DNA of 64,000 nt. Source: Sulfurospirillum sp. (GTDB lineage: Bacteria; Campylobacterota; Campylobacteria; Campylobacterales; Arcobacteraceae). A program made the translations under genes and the position numbers. The number at the start of each line of letters is the position of its first letter. Position 1 is the stretch's first letter. Positions 38,699 through 47,372 of this stretch are shown here, in pieces. The stretch is taken from positions 1 to 64,000 of the forward strand of contig JAKZMJ010000008.1 of assembly GCA_030491005.1 (NCBI GenBank), written 5' to 3'. The notes below the pieces were generated by a model, which was not told the DNA's origin, did no database searches, and worked only from the letters and a program-made list of their open reading frames with translations.

Positions 38699-40045
38699 TT
38701 AATTCTTAATTATGATTTTATCATGAGATTTTTTATATCTATTATTATGCTCTTTAATATTTGATATTTTTGTATCTTGTTTTATATTTAATAACTCTCT
38801 TGAAGCTTTTGCTTCTTCTTCATTTTCATAAGCTCCTACAATTATTCTTGCAAGATTGTTGTTTTTTCCATATCTGTAAAGTAAAACATCATTATTAATA
38901 TTTTGTTGTTTTAAAAAATCATTCATATTTATATTTTTTAAATTAATTTCACCTAAATCAATAGAATAAAAACTACTCTCATTTTTCAAAAAAACTTCTT
39001 CAAGAATGTTCACATCCTCAAGATTTTGTATATAGTAGACATCTTTGATATAAGAAGATTGAAAGTTTTTTGGTAAAGAAATTACAACTTTCTCTTTTGT
39101 ATTTATGCTTTTATTCTCTTGTTTAATGTCTTGTTTAATGTCTAGTTTTTGAATATCTGATTTTAATTCAGGTTTTAATTCAGGTTTTAATTCAGGTTTT
39201 ACTTCTTGATTTTTAATTTTTAATACAACATTTTTAGGAGATACAATATTAATATTTTGTTTTAGAAAAAAACTTTGAAATTTACTTAATTTTAAAGAAA
39301 TAGGCTTTGTTCTTTTTAAACTAGTACTTAAAAAAGAAATTGCATTATTGGCTTCTTTTTTTGTTTTATAAATTCCATATATTACTCTTGTGTATTTTTT
39401 GTTTTTCCCAAAAGCGTGAAATATAATTTCTTTTCCTAATTTATGTCTTTTTATATACTTAGCAAAACCATTTTTACTAGATGGAATAGTTGCAAGTGCA
39501 ATTGCATAATAGTTAGTATTGGTATTTAAAAATTCATATTTTAATTTACTATTTTCATTGAAATAAATATTTTTATTCATATCAATATTTATAATTTTCT
39601 TTGGAGTTTTATTATTATCTTTTTTAGATTTTTTATTTTGATTGTAATTGTATTTTTTATATAAAAATTGTTGTTTAGCTAATTTTGATATATAAGGCTT
39701 AGATTTTAATAAAGTTTCATGTAAACCATTTACTCCAACTTGTGCCTTGCTATAAGTATCAAATAAACCATATAATACAACAGAATATTTATGATTAAAT
39801 CCATATTTATAAACTAAAGCATTAGAGTTTATATTAAATTCATCTAAATACCCAAGGTTTATTTTTTCAGATGTTGCAAGTGTGCCTAATACAATTGTAT
39901 ATTTAGAAGTATTTAAAGATAAAAATTCTTCTAATAAAACATTTGAGTTAATATTATTTTCCAAATATTTAATATTTTGTATTTCTTTTGCATTTATTGT
40001 CAAAATAACTAGTATAAATATAAATAAGTATTTATATAAACTCAT
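38699..40045 (-). CDS. Secreted protein with three SPOR-like repeats
   Basis: A 448-aa protein with a signal peptide (MSLYKYLFIFILVILTINA). Three related units of about 85 residues occur near 47-131, 181-265 and 350-435; each has a YxIxL strand, a central YKYG/HAFG/YRYG and a R/VxIYG-A/I-Y motif followed by a helix. This is the SPOR pattern (cell-wall glycan binding), although diverged. Two low-complexity linkers, with PELK repeats and DIKQ repeats, precede the third unit. It is likely periplasmic and may act at the septum or wall. It has no catalytic domain. It is cotranscribed with nadK and recN. Confidence 0.7.
   Translation of the reverse strand: MSLYKYLFIFILVILTINAKEIQNIKYLENNINSNVLLEEFLSLNTSKYTIVLGTLATSEKINLGYLDEFNINSNALVYKYGFNHKYSVVLYGLFDTYSKAQVGVNGLHETLLKSKPYISKLAKQQFLYKKYNYNQNKKSKKDNNKTPKKIINIDMNKNIYFNENSKLKYEFLNTNTNYYAIALATIPSSKNGFAKYIKRHKLGKEIIFHAFGKNKKYTRVIYGIYKTKKEANNAISFLSTSLKRTKPISLKLSKFQSFFLKQNINIVSPKNVVLKIKNQEVKPELKPELKPELKSDIQKLDIKQDIKQENKSINTKEKVVISLPKNFQSSYIKDVYYIQNLEDVNILEEVFLKNESSFYSIDLGEINLKNINMNDFLKQQNINNDVLLYRYGKNNNLARIIVGAYENEEEAKASRELLNIKQDTKISNIKEHNNRYKKSHDKIIIKN
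39119..39142. repeat. Two 12-bp in-frame repeats in SPOR-like gene
   Basis: TTGTTTAATGTC occurs twice in tandem (39119-39130, 39131-39142). On the coding strand this gives DIKQDIKQ. Because 12 bp is a multiple of three, changes in copy number keep the frame. Confidence 0.85.
39161..39196. repeat. Three 12-bp in-frame repeats in SPOR-like gene
   Basis: TTTTAATTCAGG is repeated three times exactly and encodes (PELK)n on the minus strand. It lies 18 bp from the other 12-bp array. Both are in the linker before the third SPOR-like unit. Confidence 0.9.
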
Positions 40046-40121: not shown

Positions 40122-42485
40122 TTAATTTCTATTGCAAATATGTATATATGAACAATACATACATTGCATTCTATCTTCACACTTATTAAAGTTTACTTTT
40201 TTTGTTTTTAATTCTTCAAATATCTTCTCTAATAAGTCTATTTTCACATCTAGTTGTATCTCTTCTAATAATTTAATATTATTAAGATCATAATAATATG
40301 CTTTAATATCTTTTGTCTTATACATATATGAAGTAGCTATATAATAAAATTCTAATTGAAAGTCACTAGATTTTTCATATGTTCTTTTTGTATCTACTTT
40401 AAGTGAATTTGAAGTTTTATAATCAATTACTTCATAAGTATTATCTACTTTATCAATTCTATCAATTGTACCTTTAAGCTTAATGTTTTTATACTTAAAA
40501 CTAAAAGATTTCTCCAAGTTTAAAATCAATCTTCTTTGCTTAAATAAATTTTCTTCATGGAGAAAAAAATTATATAGATTTTTTTTAAAAACTTCTAAAT
40601 CTAATATTAAAAAAGTATTATCTACTTCTATATTATCAAAAATTTGTTTTAATTTTTCAAATGTTAGTATATCTTGCTTGTAATATAATTCTAATGCCTT
40701 ATGAACAATATTACCTAATTCATAAGCTTTTGGTTTTAAACTTATATCATGTTCTTTTATATTAGCAATATATTTTAAATAATATTTGCGTTTACATTGT
40801 AAAAAATATTTTAATGAACTAGCTGACCATATATTTTGCGATAAATCAATATCTAATATAATATCTTTATTAAAATGATGTAAGTTATGTTGTGTATATA
40901 AGATATGTCTATAATTATCATCATAAGCTTGATCATCATTTGAAGAATCTATATGTTTAGAAAAAAGTTCATTTGCAAACCTTGAAATTTGATTTGTATC
41001 ATTTTTGACATAAGAGATATAAACTTCTTTAGCTTGATTAATCAGTCTATCATAATAATATTTTTGTAAATTTTCCCTATCATATGAAGTTGGAAGTTTA
41101 ACAGCTTGCTTTAAACTTGTAGATAAAAACTTATCTTTTATATTTCTCTTTGGTATTAAATGTTCGTTAAAATCACATATTATAACTGTATCAAATGAAA
41201 CTTTTCTACATTCTAGTAAACCTAAGACTGTTATCTTTCCTGAAGAAATATCATCTAATGTTATTGTTGAAATTTGTTCAAATAAAATCTTGTAAGCATC
41301 TTTTAATAAAATTGTATTTTTTATTGAAAAAAATATTTTATTTAACTTATATATTATTTCAGAAAATTTTTGTATTAATTCTTTATTTGTTTCCAAAGAA
41401 ATGAAGTATTGACATATTTCTTTAAATATCTTTATGCTAAATACTTTATTCCAATTTTGCACAAATAAGTTATTAATAATATTCATATCTAAATTTAAAA
41501 ATTCTATATTGTTCTTATTTTTAATCTCATCTTGACTTATAAATAAATATATAGCTTCTATTATTTTATAAAGTTTTGTATTAAAAATATCTAAACCCAT
41601 TGCAAAATTAAAATATTTTTCATAATCAAATAATTTTAATAAATTTACAAATTTTTCATCTGGTAATACAAGTACTATTTTTGAAGCTTCAATACCATTA
41701 CTAATAGAATTTACTATTGATGTTTTTATATATGCAATTTGATTTATTCTTGATGAAAAGGCTTTTATATCAAAATTTTTAACTTGTGATATTATTTTTT
41801 TAGACTCTAAGAATGTCTTATTTGTAAAATCTATTTTATATTCACAGTCTAAATTAAAAGACATATTTACATTAGAAAATTTTTCAATTGACTTTTGGTT
41901 ATATTTAGTAGAGATAAAATTTATTTTCAATAATATTTTCTTTGAAATCATTTCTATGAAATCAAATTCTTGTTTAGTAAAGTATCCTTCAAAATAAATT
42001 TCAATATCCAAAAATTTATTAATATACTCTGTATTTAAAATAGCATATTTATCTATATTAAGCTTATCAATTGCATTATTAAAATCAAGTATATTAAGAT
42101 AATTTTTTTTAATTTTTTTTAAAATTTGTAAGTGTTCAGTATAATACTCATAAGTATCGTATTTAAGTAAAGTATCAATATCAACTTTCTCACTTGCTAA
42201 CTCTAAAAAGAATCTATATATATAGTCACTTTGTTTTAAAAATGCAGTAAATGTTGAAGAAATACCTAATTTATGAAGTTCTATATCACAAACAGCTTCT
42301 CTTAAATATAAAAATCTTTCTTCTTCATCAATATATTTTTTATTCTTAAAATAAAGTACTTTTTTAAAAAATTCATCAATACTTACAATAGAAGGAAGTA
42401 AAGTATTTTCTACTTGTGATTTAGATATATAATCTCTAATTGAGCGAGAACTTGGAAATACTACAAGTGTTGTATTATTGAGCAT
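40122..42485 (-). CDS. addB: AddB-like PD-(D/E)XK nuclease/helicase-like protein
   Basis: A 787-aa protein of the AddB family, the partner of AddA in processing double-strand breaks for recombination. The N-terminal helicase-like part has no good Walker A. The C-terminal nuclease has LGNIVHKALELYY, GTIDRIDKV and VIDYKTS (catalytic D and K). An iron-sulfur site is suggested by one cysteine in FLQCKRKYY and by CMYCSYIHIC at the end. Its start overlaps the fixH stop by 11 bp. addA, adjacent to addB in C. jejuni as I recall, is not next to it. Confidence 0.85.
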   Translation of the reverse strand: MLNNTTLVVFPSSRSIRDYISKSQVENTLLPSIVSIDEFFKKVLYFKNKKYIDEEERFLYLREAVCDIELHKLGISSTFTAFLKQSDYIYRFFLELASEKVDIDTLLKYDTYEYYTEHLQILKKIKKNYLNILDFNNAIDKLNIDKYAILNTEYINKFLDIEIYFEGYFTKQEFDFIEMISKKILLKINFISTKYNQKSIEKFSNVNMSFNLDCEYKIDFTNKTFLESKKIISQVKNFDIKAFSSRINQIAYIKTSIVNSISNGIEASKIVLVLPDEKFVNLLKLFDYEKYFNFAMGLDIFNTKLYKIIEAIYLFISQDEIKNKNNIEFLNLDMNIINNLFVQNWNKVFSIKIFKEICQYFISLETNKELIQKFSEIIYKLNKIFFSIKNTILLKDAYKILFEQISTITLDDISSGKITVLGLLECRKVSFDTVIICDFNEHLIPKRNIKDKFLSTSLKQAVKLPTSYDRENLQKYYYDRLINQAKEVYISYVKNDTNQISRFANELFSKHIDSSNDDQAYDDNYRHILYTQHNLHHFNKDIILDIDLSQNIWSASSLKYFLQCKRKYYLKYIANIKEHDISLKPKAYELGNIVHKALELYYKQDILTFEKLKQIFDNIEVDNTFLILDLEVFKKNLYNFFLHEENLFKQRRLILNLEKSFSFKYKNIKLKGTIDRIDKVDNTYEVIDYKTSNSLKVDTKRTYEKSSDFQLEFYYIATSYMYKTKDIKAYYYDLNNIKLLEEIQLDVKIDLLEKIFEELKTKKVNFNKCEDRMQCMYCSYIHICNRN

Positions 42486-43038
42486 TTGATTTTATATAAA
42501 AATAAGCTTTGTCTGTGTTTATTTTGAATTTTGCTATTAAATTCCAATTTCCTTTTAATGGTAAATTAAAATCAGCAGTATGAGCATTGTTTTTATAAAT
42601 AAAATTTGTATTTGTGAGGTTCATTGTATTTTTATGATTTGTAGGTCGTGATATCTGAACATCTATTTTAATATTTTTTATCAATTTATTTGATTTTTTA
42701 TTTTTAATAGTAATAAAAACTGTATTTAAACCTTTTTTAAAAGTATTTTTATGTTTTGAATATTTTTCTATTACTCTTTGAGCTAGTAAAATATCTTTTG
42801 TAACTAAAGCAAATATTTGCTTATTTATTTCCATTTTAAAATCATATTTTTTTCTAAATTTTTCATTATTATGAATAATATCATTATATGTTTTATCCAA
42901 ATCATGATAAGAGTCTAAAAATGTTCTATCTTCATGTACTGGTGTTTTAATTGCCCAATAAATAGTCCATACAATCATAAAAAATGTGAAAAGGAATATC
43001 CCTATAAATAATAAAGGCCAATAGTTCTTTTTTGTCAA
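42475..43038 (-). CDS. FixH-family protein
   Basis: A 187-aa protein with one N-terminal membrane helix (WPLLFIGIFLFTFFMIVWTIYWAI) and a periplasmic beta-rich domain ending in NLPLKGNWNLIAKFKI, as in FixH proteins involved in cbb3 oxidase maturation or copper supply. It starts with TTG at 43038; no nearby ATG fits, and AGAAGG lies upstream. It belongs to the cco operon and precedes addB. Confidence 0.8.
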   Translation of the reverse strand: MTKKNYWPLLFIGIFLFTFFMIVWTIYWAIKTPVHEDRTFLDSYHDLDKTYNDIIHNNEKFRKKYDFKMEINKQIFALVTKDILLAQRVIEKYSKHKNTFKKGLNTVFITIKNKKSNKLIKNIKIDVQISRPTNHKNTMNLTNTNFIYKNNAHTADFNLPLKGNWNLIAKFKINTDKAYFYIKSNAQ

Positions 43039-43042
43039 TGTT

Positions 43043-43675
43043 TTATACCTTCTTTCTTCTTAACATAGCATAAATATACACCAACAGTCCAAAAACTACC
43101 AAAGTATAAATAAATACTCTCCATATCGTACTTGCTACCTTGCTTGAACTACCAATACTACTGGTTAATTCAATATTTTTTGCTTCTGCAATGCTATCTG
43201 CTATTGCAGCATAACCATTTAAAACAGCAGCACTAGTTTTTGAAAAAACTGTATTTTTATCTTTTGATGCAAGTAAAGGAACAACATAATCATCTAATAT
43301 ATCATCTTTATTTATGATATTCTTTAGGCTTTTAGATGTATATAAATTTACATGAATATCATTAATAGACATTGTTAATAAAACATATGGTTTTGTAAGA
43401 TTTTTTAAAATTTTATCTTCATATTGTTTAATATATTTAAGTTTATTTTTTATTGAAATACTCTTTTTAAAACCAAGGTTTTTTTTAACATATAAATAAA
43501 TATTTACACCTAGTTTTTCTTTTGTTTCTTTTCCTATCTCATTTATCTTATTAATTGCCCTTATGTCAATAATGCCACTACTACTTAAAATAAATTCACT
43601 AGCAAAGATACTATAAGGAAAAGACAATAAAAGTAAAAATAATATTTTTACTTTTATTAATTTAAATTTTATCAT
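43043..43675 (-). CDS. TPM-domain membrane protein
   Basis: A 210-aa protein with a signal peptide (ILFLLLLSFPYSIFA), a TPM-fold periplasmic domain (about 27-165, with GVNIYLYVKK and PYVLLTMSINDIHVNLYTS) and a C-terminal membrane helix (FIYTLVVFGLLVYIYAML) followed by RRKK. TPM domains are found in photosystem repair and in assembly factors. Its ATG overlaps the stop of a 30-aa gene (TAATG), and it precedes fixH by 4 bp. A role in cbb3 oxidase assembly is inferred from position only. Confidence 0.75.
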   Translation of the reverse strand: MIKFKLIKVKILFLLLLSFPYSIFASEFILSSSGIIDIRAINKINEIGKETKEKLGVNIYLYVKKNLGFKKSISIKNKLKYIKQYEDKILKNLTKPYVLLTMSINDIHVNLYTSKSLKNIINKDDILDDYVVPLLASKDKNTVFSKTSAAVLNGYAAIADSIAEAKNIELTSSIGSSSKVASTIWRVFIYTLVVFGLLVYIYAMLRRKKV

Positions 43676-43767
43676 TATCCAACAAAAATTTTTGATGAAT
43701 CAAAAAAAGATAGATATAAAGTCAACACGGCTGTAGCTACTAATAAAAGTCCAATAATTTTATCCAT
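43675..43767 (-). CDS. 30-aa membrane microprotein in the cco operon
   Basis: A short open frame reads MDKIIGLLLVATAVLTLYLS and then FFDSSKIFVG before a TAA. It is a single hydrophobic helix with an N-terminal charge and a short polar tail. AAAGGAAT is 8 bp before the ATG, and its TAA overlaps the start of the TPM gene as TAATG, so it looks translated and coupled. It lies 13 bp after the DUF4006 gene. Its size and topology resemble small oxidase subunits such as CydX or CcoQ/CcoH-type, but no homology is claimed. Confidence 0.7.
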   Translation of the reverse strand: MDKIIGLLLVATAVLTLYLSFFDSSKIFVG

Positions 43768-43780
43768 TATATCAATTCCT

Positions 43781-44053
43781 TTATTTTTTACTATCAATTA
43801 GAAGATAGTGTTTTCGTTGTTCTTCGTTAGTATTTTGTTTCATTGGTGAAAATATACTTCCTGAAGTTAATCCATTAATATCTCTGTTAATTGTATAAAA
43901 ATTTCTTGCTTCTCTTTGTTGAACATCAATAGAAAAAAAAGTTAAAATTCCTAATATACTTAATAAAAGTACAACGGCAACTAACATGCCTGTGATACCA
44001 TGAAGAAAGCTAAAGATTCCTCTTTCTTCATCAGTCATTTGAGTATTCTTCAT
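43781..44053 (-). CDS. DUF4006 membrane protein
   Basis: A 90-aa protein with one membrane helix (GMLVAVVLLLSILGILTFFSI) and a C-terminal polar domain. The opening MTDEERGIFSFLHGITGMLV matches DUF4006, a family I know from Campylobacterota next to ccoP. Its start overlaps the ccoP stop (ATGA). Probably a cbb3 oxidase accessory or assembly protein; the function is not established. Confidence 0.85.
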   Translation of the reverse strand: MKNTQMTDEERGIFSFLHGITGMLVAVVLLLSILGILTFFSIDVQQREARNFYTINRDINGLTSGSIFSPMKQNTNEEQRKHYLLIDSKK

Positions 44054-44946
44054 TGTGTGTCTCCTAAACTTCTGATATATACAGCAAGAGCTTTTTCTTG
44101 AGTTTTATTTAATGTACCTTTAAAACTTAACATTGTTCCAATATTAGCTTTTTTTCCATTTTCTAAAACTGCTAAAATTAAAGCATCATCATATTCTACA
44201 AGATTAGGACCAGCAAAGGCTATCCCTTTCCCATCAACTCCATGACATCCTGCACAAACCATATAAGAAGATGGTTGTTTACCTTTAAAGCCACCTGCTA
44301 CATAAGAAGAAACTTCATCAATATCATTGGCATCACTTAACATCATAGGAGGCATTCCACCTGGATATGCTGTTTTAAAGTTATATGCACCATTTCTAAT
44401 CACATATTGCACAGAAGATTTTAAAATTCTTATAGTTAAATCTTTAGATTTACCATCAATTCCTTCTGCATCAACACCATGACAAGGAGCACATTGAACT
44501 AAGAAAATAGACTCACCCATAGCTCTTAATGTTTCTTGCGATGGATTATCCCATTTAGATGCAAATTTTTCATTGTATTCTAGGGTTTCTTCATTCCATT
44601 GACCAATTTGAGAGAAACTATTTGTAGGATATCCAATTAACATATACCACATAGCCCAAACAATCATGGCAATAAATGCAATCCCCCAACCTTTAGGAAT
44701 CTCATTAGCATACTCACCAATACCATCCCAACTACCGTCTAATAAGTCACCACTAACAGTGTCATTTTTTATTTGATTAATATATTTAATCACAACAAAT
44801 ACAGTAATTGCAATAATTGCAAAAGCACCAAGCATTGTTAAACTATTAATATAATCACCACTAACAAAGGCATCCCCTGCAACAAAGTAAGTTCCTGCCA
44901 TCAAAGCGATAACAAGAATAATCCCACCTATAACCATAGATTTCAT
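44050..44946 (-). CDS. ccoP: cbb3 cytochrome oxidase subunit III (diheme)
   Basis: A 298-aa protein with two N-terminal membrane helices and two cytochrome c domains; heme sites are CAPCHG near residue 153 and CAGCHG near 231, with axial methionines likely in GGMPPMM and GTMLSF. CcoP passes electrons from cytochrome c to CcoO and CcoN. AAGGAG precedes the ATG, which overlaps the ccoQ stop. Confidence 0.96.
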   Translation of the reverse strand: MKSMVIGGIILVIALMAGTYFVAGDAFVSGDYINSLTMLGAFAIIAITVFVVIKYINQIKNDTVSGDLLDGSWDGIGEYANEIPKGWGIAFIAMIVWAMWYMLIGYPTNSFSQIGQWNEETLEYNEKFASKWDNPSQETLRAMGESIFLVQCAPCHGVDAEGIDGKSKDLTIRILKSSVQYVIRNGAYNFKTAYPGGMPPMMLSDANDIDEVSSYVAGGFKGKQPSSYMVCAGCHGVDGKGIAFAGPNLVEYDDALILAVLENGKKANIGTMLSFKGTLNKTQEKALAVYIRSLGDTQ

Positions 44947-45173
44947 ACTGTTTCTCCTTGTTCTTTATTCTTTTTTTCTTTCGTTTGTTCTTCAAATGGA
45001 GTAGATTCTATTAAATCATTATGCACAAGATCTGTATATTTTTCATAATTTTTTGTACCATTTTTATCTCTTTTATACATAGAATAAGCATAAGAATAAA
45101 ATACAATAAATACAATAAGTATTAAAAAAAATTTCAAATAACCTTGTAGCGTTAATAAAGTTTCATAATCCAT
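44943..45173 (-). CDS. ccoQ: cbb3 oxidase small subunit CcoQ
   Basis: A 76-aa protein with one membrane helix (FFLILIVFIVFYSYAYSMY), then DKNGTKNYEKY and a charged tail, as in Campylobacterota CcoQ. It stabilises the oxidase. A GTG at 45182 would overlap the ccoO stop, but the ATG at 45173 fits family length better; no clear ribosome site exists for either, so coupling to ccoO is likely. Confidence 0.88.
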   Translation of the reverse strand: MDYETLLTLQGYLKFFLILIVFIVFYSYAYSMYKRDKNGTKNYEKYTDLVHNDLIESTPFEEQTKEKKNKEQGETV

Positions 45174-45181
45174 CGTATACA

Positions 45182-45865
45182 CTATTTTAAAGAATTTAAA
45201 TATGCAATTAAAGCAACAATTTCAGGTATAACACCATTTTTTACTTTATCTTTTACTGCTTGACTTTTCATATCAGCTACTATTTCTCTTGCTTGTTTTT
45301 TAGCCAAAGAAATAGCATCTTTATATTCACCAAGAGGCACATCTATCTTACCATCACCATTTAAATCAACATCATATGGTGTTTTAAATATCTTTTTAAC
45401 TGTATATGCTTCAGCATAAGCTGTATCTAAATCAGCAATATTATCAAACATATATGCATACGATGGCATTATTGAACCAGGTACAACTGATGGTGCATCA
45501 AGCATATGATTTTCATGCCAATCTGTAGTTCTATAATTTCCAACTCTCATTAAATCAGGTCCTGTTCTTTTAGAACCCCATAAAAATGGTCTATCATAAG
45601 CAAATTCACCTGAAAGTGAATACATACCATATCTATCAGTTTCACTTTTAAAAGGTCTTATTAACTGAGAATGACAAGAATTACAAGAATCTTTTATATA
45701 AACCTGTCTTCCAGCTAACTCTAAAACTGTGTACGGTTTAGTACCAACACTTGGTCTAGCTTGTTTAGCAAAATCAGGAATAACTTCTATAATTCCTGCA
45801 AACGCAACAACAATAAATACTAACACTGCAAAGAAAAACGGTCTTTGCTCAAACCAATGAAACAT
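45182..45865 (-). CDS. ccoO: cbb3 cytochrome oxidase subunit II
   Basis: A 227-aa membrane-anchored monoheme cytochrome c. The N-terminal helix (FFFAVLVFIVVAFAGIIEV) is followed by the heme motif CNSCHSQ near residue 61 and VPGSIMPSYAYMF with the methionine ligand. It follows ccoN by 15 bp. Confidence 0.96.
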   Translation of the reverse strand: MFHWFEQRPFFFAVLVFIVVAFAGIIEVIPDFAKQARPSVGTKPYTVLELAGRQVYIKDSCNSCHSQLIRPFKSETDRYGMYSLSGEFAYDRPFLWGSKRTGPDLMRVGNYRTTDWHENHMLDAPSVVPGSIMPSYAYMFDNIADLDTAYAEAYTVKKIFKTPYDVDLNGDGKIDVPLGEYKDAISLAKKQAREIVADMKSQAVKDKVKNGVIPEIVALIAYLNSLK

Positions 45866-45880
45866 ATTTAACCCTCCTTC

Positions 45881-47347
45881 TTATGGTGCTACAGGTGTAG
45901 CATTAATAGGTTCTTTATCTAAAATTCTACCACACACTATGGTTTTATACATATTATATGAAAAGATTAAAAAACCAACAAGATATAATAATCCACCAAC
46001 AGCTCTAATTGTATAATATGGTTGTAATACAGTAACTGTATCTATAAATGAATAAACTAAAGATCCATATTCATCATAAGCTCTCCACATCATTCCTTGC
46101 GTAATACCAGCTACCCACATCGATGTGAAATATAATACAATCCCAGTTGTTTGTAACCAAAACTGAGTATCCATTAAAGATTTTGAATATAATTCTCTTT
46201 TGAAAATCCTAGGTGCCATATGAAATAATGCTGCCATTATTACAAATACAACCCAACCTAAAGTACCATCATGAACATGTCCTGGAATCCAATCAGTAAA
46301 GTGAGCAATAGCATTAACTGATTTAATAGATTGTATGGGACCTTCAATGGTAGATAACATATAAAAAGTTGATGCTAAAACCATAAATTTAATTAAAGTA
46401 TTTGATTGTAGCTGTTGCCATTCACCTTTCATAGTTAAAAGCATATTAATAGCAGATCCCCAAGATGGTATAATTAAAACAATAGACATAACAGAACCCA
46501 TAGTTTGCATCCAGTCAGGAACTGTTGAATAAATTAAGTGATGCCCACCTGCCCATAAATAAACAAACAATAATCCCCAAAAAGCTAAAATAGAAAGCTT
46601 ATATGAATAAATATTTTGTCCAGATTCTTTTGGTAAAAAATAATAAATTATTCCAATAATAGGTACAGTTAATACAAAGCCAACTGCATTATGTGCAAAC
46701 CACCACTGCACTAAGGCATCATTTGTACCAGCATATACTGATACTGAATGCATCCAAGAACCATATCCTGATACAAAATATGTAGGTATTTCTATATTAT
46801 TAAATAAATATAAAGTTGCTACTGTTAAAAAACATGCAATGAAATACCATAAAGATATATATAAAGTTCGCTCTCTTCTAATACCAATTAAACCAAAAAT
46901 AGAAACACCCCATAAAACCCACCATACAACAATTAAAATATCTAAAGGCCATTCTAGTTCCGCATATTCTTTTGAAGTTGTATATCCCATAAGTAATGTT
47001 ACAACTGCTAAGAGTATAGTAATAAAGTAAAGAACAAAATGCAATTTAGCTATAAACATTAAAAAAGGTGATTCTCTTAAGGAAACTTTTAGAACTCTTT
47101 GTCCTATATAATACCACGAAGCAAAAATACCACTTAAAGTAAAACCAAATATTGCACCGTTTGTGTGTAAAGGTCTTAATCTTCCAAAAGTACCGTATTC
47201 TCCAGCTAAGTTATTTAACTGTGGATATGCTAATTGAAATGCTAAAATTACACCAACAAGCATACCTATAATACCAAATAAAATTGTTGTGTATGTAAAT
47301 GCTTTTACAATTGTATAATCATATTCAATTTTTACACCATCTTGCAT
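45881..47347 (-). CDS. ccoN: cbb3 cytochrome oxidase catalytic subunit
   Basis: A 488-aa, twelve-helix heme-copper oxidase subunit that reduces oxygen and pumps protons with high oxygen affinity. Heme and copper ligands are seen in HTNGAIFGF, HNAVGFVL, AGGHHLIYSTVPDW and GHVHDGTLGW. I chose the ATG at 47347, six bases after GGAGG, over a TTG one codon upstream. It is the promoter-proximal gene of ccoNOQP. Confidence 0.97.
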   Translation of the reverse strand: MQDGVKIEYDYTIVKAFTYTTILFGIIGMLVGVILAFQLAYPQLNNLAGEYGTFGRLRPLHTNGAIFGFTLSGIFASWYYIGQRVLKVSLRESPFLMFIAKLHFVLYFITILLAVVTLLMGYTTSKEYAELEWPLDILIVVWWVLWGVSIFGLIGIRRERTLYISLWYFIACFLTVATLYLFNNIEIPTYFVSGYGSWMHSVSVYAGTNDALVQWWFAHNAVGFVLTVPIIGIIYYFLPKESGQNIYSYKLSILAFWGLLFVYLWAGGHHLIYSTVPDWMQTMGSVMSIVLIIPSWGSAINMLLTMKGEWQQLQSNTLIKFMVLASTFYMLSTIEGPIQSIKSVNAIAHFTDWIPGHVHDGTLGWVVFVIMAALFHMAPRIFKRELYSKSLMDTQFWLQTTGIVLYFTSMWVAGITQGMMWRAYDEYGSLVYSFIDTVTVLQPYYTIRAVGGLLYLVGFLIFSYNMYKTIVCGRILDKEPINATPVAP

Positions 47348-47372
47348 CAACTTCCTCCTTTAAATTTTATGT

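Follow-up and report, generated by a model that had tools for sequence, protein, structure and literature searches.

The cbb3 oxidase (cco) operon in a stretch of 64,000 nucleotides from Sulfurospirillum sp. (contig JAKZMJ010000008.1 of assembly GCA_030491005.1; hereafter the window, meaning the whole stretch) carries a gene for a 30-residue membrane microprotein, MDKIIGLLLVATAVLTLYLSFFDSSKIFVG, which we identify with near certainty as ccoY in its Arcobacteraceae form, the homologue of cj1485c in Campylobacter jejuni. Overall, the findings presented here support with good confidence that the window gene is ccoY and that its product is most likely a structural subunit stabilising the cbb3 core together with CcoX, the product of the gene before it. 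In the phylum to which Campylobacter and Helicobacter belong, the cbb3 enzyme serves as the high-affinity terminal oxidase. In the proposed arrangement, CcoY would be a single-pass inner-membrane protein with a helix of about 21 residues, encoded within the cco operon. Most likely, CcoY binds the CcoNOP(Q) core alongside CcoX and, as a small structural subunit, has a stabilising effect on it, as has been reported for CcoM in the Pseudomonas cbb3 oxidase and for CydX in bd oxidases.

Identification of the window gene as ccoY

The ccoY open reading frame (ORF; window positions 43767-43675, minus strand) starts with ATG, has the ribosome site AAAGGA 9 nt upstream of it and does not overlap ccoX; the last A of its stop codon TAA is the first base of the ccoZ ATG (TAATG junction). 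A previous reading of the window from its letters (the sequence-only reading) had proposed a 30-codon gene with a good ribosome site and a TAATG overlap, lying with DUF4006, TPM and FixH genes in an accessory set after ccoNOQP, and all of these elements were recovered. The DUF4006 (PF13179) and FixH (PF05751) neighbours, ccoX and ccoH, scored above the cut-offs, the TPM gene (ccoZ) was recognised by aligned members and structure, and ccoN, ccoO, ccoQ and ccoP lie, in that order, directly upstream of ccoX-ccoY-ccoZ-ccoH.

The same X-Y-Z-H order is found in C. jejuni. In PMC8267372, cj1485c was named ccoY in 2021 and described as encoding 33 residues with one helix, between cj1486c (ccoX, DUF4006) and cj1484c (ccoZ, TPM, likened to MSMEG_4692), with cj1483c (ccoH, FixH) following. 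We located this gene in our data at locus L052, where three primers used in that paper for the cj1486c and cj1485c deletions fit without mismatch and flank a 33-residue ORF, MSKALEYLIVIGLVAAAAITAWSVLTVNHLHIG. A profile-profile comparison of 13 Arcobacter-type with 15 C. jejuni-type CcoY sequences gave an end-to-end alignment of 29 columns at 97.1% probability; in the control comparisons of each CcoY type with CcoX, the probabilities were 3.8% and 18.1%. The neighbouring proteins were also related, with 44% identity over 50 residues for CcoX (expectation value, E, 5e-11), 32% for CcoZ (E 2e-28) and 26% between the window CcoH and the C. jejuni neighbour ORF (E 1e-14). The window and C. jejuni proteins share their place between ccoX and ccoZ, a similar size (30 and 33 residues, respectively) and a single helix, whereas they differ in the tail (..VLTVNHLHIG in the window, ..FFDSSKIFVG in C. 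jejuni) and in that ccoY overlaps ccoX in C. jejuni but not in the window.

The sequence-only reading had presented the gene as a possible unlisted, CydX-like oxidase microprotein. The gene, the operon and the likeness in kind are supported here, but "unlisted" does not hold for the phylum, since Cj1485c/CcoY was published in PMC8267372. By title, our literature search found no other paper treating ccoY/Cj1485c, CcoZ or DUF4006 as oxidase factors, and Cj1484-Cj1486 are not named in the main text of a ribosome profiling study (PMC11955535). ccoY is already known in kind; what is new, as far as the literature was searched, is the connection of the Arcobacter form to it by profile, the phylum count, the second operons and the caveat on deletion design described below.

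Distribution across the phylum

Conservation of the frame in relatives had been set beforehand as a check, and the frame proved to be conserved. Of the 37 genomes from the window's family, 33 gave a CcoY match at E<1e-3. The exceptions are G013 and G027, in which no ccoN passed the threshold, G024, with a C. jejuni-like CcoY form, and a fourth genome that is considered below. ccoX was present in 381 of 397 phylum genomes at E<=0.01 (380 above the cut-off). No DUF4006 match at E<=0.01 was obtained in 14 control genomes outside the phylum, and the titles of the best 80 of 297 ccoX relatives name Campylobacterota or just "bacterium". A CcoY profile built from 35 sequences matched 280 of the 397 genomes, the shortfall lying mainly in family f13, which we take to be Helicobacteraceae. 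A second CcoY profile matched 71 of 121 f13 genomes, and eight f13 loci missed by both profiles (L171, L172 and L175-L180) carry a one-helix ORF of 33-36 residues after ccoX, directly in seven and 451 nt further in L179. The absence of CcoY in Helicobacteraceae, as the first profile would have had it, was dropped, such an ORF standing behind ccoX there.

We also examined 176 loci in which ccoX is followed by 200 nt or more of sequence, some genomes being counted twice; four loci without detected ccoX (L009, L018, L029 and L076) and eight sub-threshold DUF4006 matches (L181-L188) were left out. A one-helix ORF of 27-40 codons lies downstream of ccoX in 173 of these loci. An automatic rule (ORF of 27-40 residues with a hydrophobic stretch, at most 700 nt downstream of ccoX) was passed by 167 loci, representing 136 distinct proteins, and six more ORFs with a different last residue were recognised by eye (L068, L088, L114, L121, L167 and L174). 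In the remaining three loci (L071, L072 and L075), ccoG directly follows ccoX; ccoY lies behind ccoG in L071 and L072, and on another contig in the genome of L075.

In the Sulfurimonas-type loci L046, L117 and L120, the CcoY tail reads TIGQAVLVG in place of the usual TPNHLFVG. Locus L201 (G024:C8:19000-27500), from an otherwise Arcobacter-type family, combines a C. jejuni-like CcoY with a CcoN that is only 75% identical to that of the window, compared with 87-88% in the main copies examined from other genomes; the operon may have been transferred here as a whole.

Selection, helix and topology

The ccoY frame is under purifying selection. The median pairwise ratio of nonsynonymous to synonymous substitution (dN/dS), taken over pairs with a proportion of synonymous differences (pS) below 0.6 in three CcoY groups, was 0.33 for 30 Arcobacter-type DNA sequences, 0.21 for 90 sequences with the NHL tail and 0.14 for eight Helicobacter-type sequences. 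The two other frames contained stops in 29 and 27 of the 30 Arcobacter-type, 90 and 59 of the 90 NHL and 8 and 8 of the 8 Helicobacter-type sequences.

The modelled helix covers residues 2-22 of the window CcoY, the tail being less certain. Lys or Arg is found near the N-terminus in 133 of the 136 distinct CcoY proteins and near the C-terminus in 35. Under the positive-inside rule, this N-terminal excess suggests an N-in, C-out topology, so that the basic N-terminus is probably inside and the short conserved C-terminal tail periplasmic. V20 and T22 are invariant in 83 of 83 distinct proteins of the NHL group; N, H, L and the last G are invariant as well, but these served as selection criteria for the group. 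Conservation of the tail beside a drifting helix would be consistent with docking at the periplasmic, haem-bearing side. The scan for a one-sided conserved helix face gave p values of 0.21 for one of the two large groups, 0.41 for the other and 0.034 for the eight Helicobacter-type sequences, and was not used.

Association with the oxidase and second operons

Sixteen genomes of the phylum gave no ccoX match, and 14 of these also lack ccoN; the exceptions, G268 with ccoN and G413 with a partial ccoN, are both draft assemblies. A 17th genome, G090, whose ccoX match is only sub-cut-off, lacks ccoN as well, and the seven other genomes included in the ccoN search, all ccoX-bearing, have it. In two f18 genomes the order is N-O-Q-P-X-G-Y-Z-H, with ccoY parted from ccoX yet still in the operon. 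Loci L195 and L196 of this family show ccoG within the operon, between ccoX and ccoY; in C. jejuni, ccoG is elsewhere in the genome, outside the operon (PMC8267372).

Two ccoN matches were found in 7 of 104 genomes of the window's family, of which six were examined, G456 being excluded with both matches at contig ends. Three of the six (G034, G366 and G399) carry a second operon, N-O-(Q)-P-X-Y, without ccoZ and ccoH, and ccoQ is missing in two of them. In each, ccoY is followed by a 524-codon gene that by its appearance would encode a sulfite/nitrite reductase, and the three operons may perhaps stem from one event. The retention of ccoX and ccoY without ccoZ and ccoH in these operons favours a structural role.

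Published C. jejuni deletions

According to PMC8267372, deletion of ccoY in C. jejuni significantly lowered cbb3 oxidase activity without abolishing it, and excess copper gave no rescue. The ccoX and ccoH deletions each left no oxidase activity, and the ccoY and ccoZ strains had a partial phenotype in common. In the C. jejuni-type locus L052 (reverse strand, 1498-2416), ccoY overlaps both ccoX and ccoZ by 4 nt. The upstream arm of the ccoY deletion reaches as far as the base immediately preceding the ccoY ATG, and its downstream counterpart starts directly behind the ccoY stop, so that by design the arms omit the ccoX stop codon and the ccoZ start codon; likewise, the ccoX deletion by design omits the ccoY start codon. 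Since the ccoY arms omit these two codons, the published phenotype is not cleanly that of CcoY. The promoter of the deletion cassette addresses transcription and not the lost start and stop codons, although the ends of the cassette could offer a start or stop that partly makes up for them. The available parts of PMC8267372 contain no mention of genetic complementation for these strains. The partial phenotype common to the ccoY and ccoZ strains could have a single cause.

CcoY is conserved, travels with cbb3, lacks a curated Pfam or NCBIfam family, and has been the subject of one published experiment, which touched both neighbours; these features make it an obvious candidate for an unambiguous test. 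Where short genes overlap as they do in operons of this kind, they should be inactivated by point changes and not by exchanging the entire frame.

Structural subunit or assembly factor

We lean slightly towards CcoY being a bound subunit rather than a transient assembly factor, because of the second operons and the precedents of CcoM and CydX. A stronger version, which we put forward tentatively and to which we give rather less credence, is that CcoX and CcoY are constitutive structural subunits of the Campylobacterota cbb3 oxidase, held more firmly on the core than CcoQ, giving an N-O-P-X-Y core unlike those of the solved enzymes, in which CcoY would have been missed since it yields no useful tryptic peptide.

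Several observations weigh against a CcoY subunit, or against the identification on which it is built. BLASTP gave no match between the window CcoY and the 33-residue Cj1485 of L052, and the Helicobacter-type form is tied to CcoY by position only. One genome among the 37 of the window's family, G017, has ccoN and no CcoY match. ccoX and ccoY accompany the core in three of the six second copies and are absent from the other three. In L197 (G014:C1:3080000-3088500), a second ccoN-ccoO-ccoQ ends after ccoQ. L199 (G024:C6) and L200 (G457:C87) have a divergent second operon, N-O-P, without ccoX, ccoY, ccoZ and ccoH, with a CcoN 52-53% identical to that of the window. From the experimental side come the activity that is left in the C. 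jejuni ccoY deletion strain, the missing ccoX and ccoZ codons in its design, and the proteomics of blue-native gel bands, from which nine oxidase and Qcr proteins were named in PMC8267372, CcoY not among them. This last absence says little, because trypsin gives poor fragments, predicted to be of 3 and 30 residues for C. jejuni CcoY and of 3, 23 and 4 for the window CcoY. For other oxidases, MALDI-MS/MS of small proteins left intact, with no digest, has been described (PMC9264385). As to L197 itself, the frames after ccoQ look like the antisense of a ribosomal RNA operon, and the locus looks like a broken duplication or an assembly fault.

Alternatively, CcoY could be a transient assembly factor, acting in cofactor loading or subunit joining and not part of the finished enzyme. 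The partial loss of activity upon ccoY deletion (PMC8267372), the presence of ccoH in the same operon, the adjoining ccoG in some genomes and the lack of CcoY among the proteins named from the complex bands would all agree with this. However, ccoY is kept in three second operons without ccoZ and ccoH, even if a factor could act there in trans from the first operon, the lack of rescue by excess copper in the C. jejuni strain speaks against copper loading, and the absence of CcoY from tryptic mass spectrometry is expected from its sequence. Altogether, we judge an assembly factor unlikely. It is a little less probable still that the published phenotype is really that of the neighbours, CcoY having a minor role or working alongside CcoZ to link the oxidase with the cytochrome bc complex. 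The overlap of 4 nt with each neighbour, the placing of the deletion arms and the phenotype common to the ccoY and ccoZ strains point in this direction, but purifying selection indicates a role of its own for ccoY, the gene occurs without ccoZ in three second operons, and the cassette ends may provide a start or stop. Finally, that ccoY has no protein function and is either a chance ORF or a leader or translational coupler for ccoZ, as its shortness and its overlap with the ccoZ start (TAATG in the window, 4 nt in C. jejuni) might suggest, is highly improbable, a chance frame or leader peptide being ruled out by the dN/dS medians and the full-length profile match across families, besides the copies without ccoZ behind them.

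The operon in the window

The genes of the operon in the window are listed with their features in Table 1. The start codon of ccoQ is uncertain (GTG at 45182 or ATG at 45173). The window ccoZ alone gave no Pfam match at E<=1. The TPM label nevertheless holds, because 15 of 24 members of the ccoZ alignment match TPM_phosphatase (PF04536; best E 8.4e-9) and the predicted structure (mean predicted local distance difference test score, pLDDT, 85.7) matches the TPM fold, the best Foldseek matches in the Protein Data Bank (PDB) being TPM proteins, including Psb32 and AtTLP18.3. The model also matches a mycobacterial supercomplex subunit (8ovc_V and 6hwh_O). Promoter and terminator counts in the scan were not above those in shuffles.

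Table 1. Genes of the extended cco operon in the window
Feature	Position	Strand	Basis
ccoY, 30-residue single-helix membrane microprotein	43675..43767	minus	ORF, ribosome site, conservation, purifying selection, profile match to C. jejuni CcoY, modelled helix
ccoX, DUF4006 protein, 90 residues	43781..44053	minus	PF13179 E 2.8e-20, 72.4 bits (cut-off 22)
ccoZ, TPM-fold protein with membrane anchor, 210 residues	43043..43675	minus	Start within TAATG junction; family alignment and structure
ccoH (FixH), 187 residues	42475..43038	minus	PF05751 25.6 bits (cut-off 23)
ccoP, dihaem cytochrome c subunit	44050..44946	minus	FixP_N and Cytochrome_CBB3 domains; TIGR00782 E 1.4e-31, under its cut-off
ccoQ	44943..45182	minus	TIGR02736 E 1.3e-13 and FixQ E 7.4e-6, both under curated cut-offs
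ccoO	45182..45865	minus	FixO E 1.7e-81; TIGR00781 above cut-off
ccoN, catalytic subunit	45881..47350	minus	phmmer against solved CcoN 3mk7 E 2e-143; TIGR00780 above cut-off

Elsewhere in the window (38699-40045, minus strand) a 448-residue protein has SPOR-domain matches (PF05036) in two stretches and a short repeat run, PELKPELKPELK, in its middle.

Comparison with other small oxidase proteins

Matches of single CcoY members to PsbN and other Pfam families (E 0.0058 or weaker) were taken as chance among short hydrophobic proteins. The CcoY profile gave one unrelated match among PDB sequences (E 1.5) and no link to CcoM, whose presence in that library is unconfirmed, or to other solved small subunits. 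The PDB gave five CcoN matches, in a listing that does not show source organisms, and no Campylobacterota cbb3 entry was recognised among them.

Within the operon itself, CcoQ is also a small membrane protein, but it is encoded by a separate gene in the window, and ccoY persists in two second operons without ccoQ. CcoM of Pseudomonas stutzeri resembles CcoY in being a small one-helix protein, of 36 residues, belonging to a cbb3 oxidase (PMC10433244); CcoM is a demonstrated subunit (PMC10433244, PMC9264385), whereas CcoY is a candidate one. CydX of the bd oxidases and CioY of C. jejuni are likewise microproteins that serve a terminal oxidase and are encoded beside it (PMC11955535), but theirs is another oxidase family, and the likeness to CcoY is one in kind.

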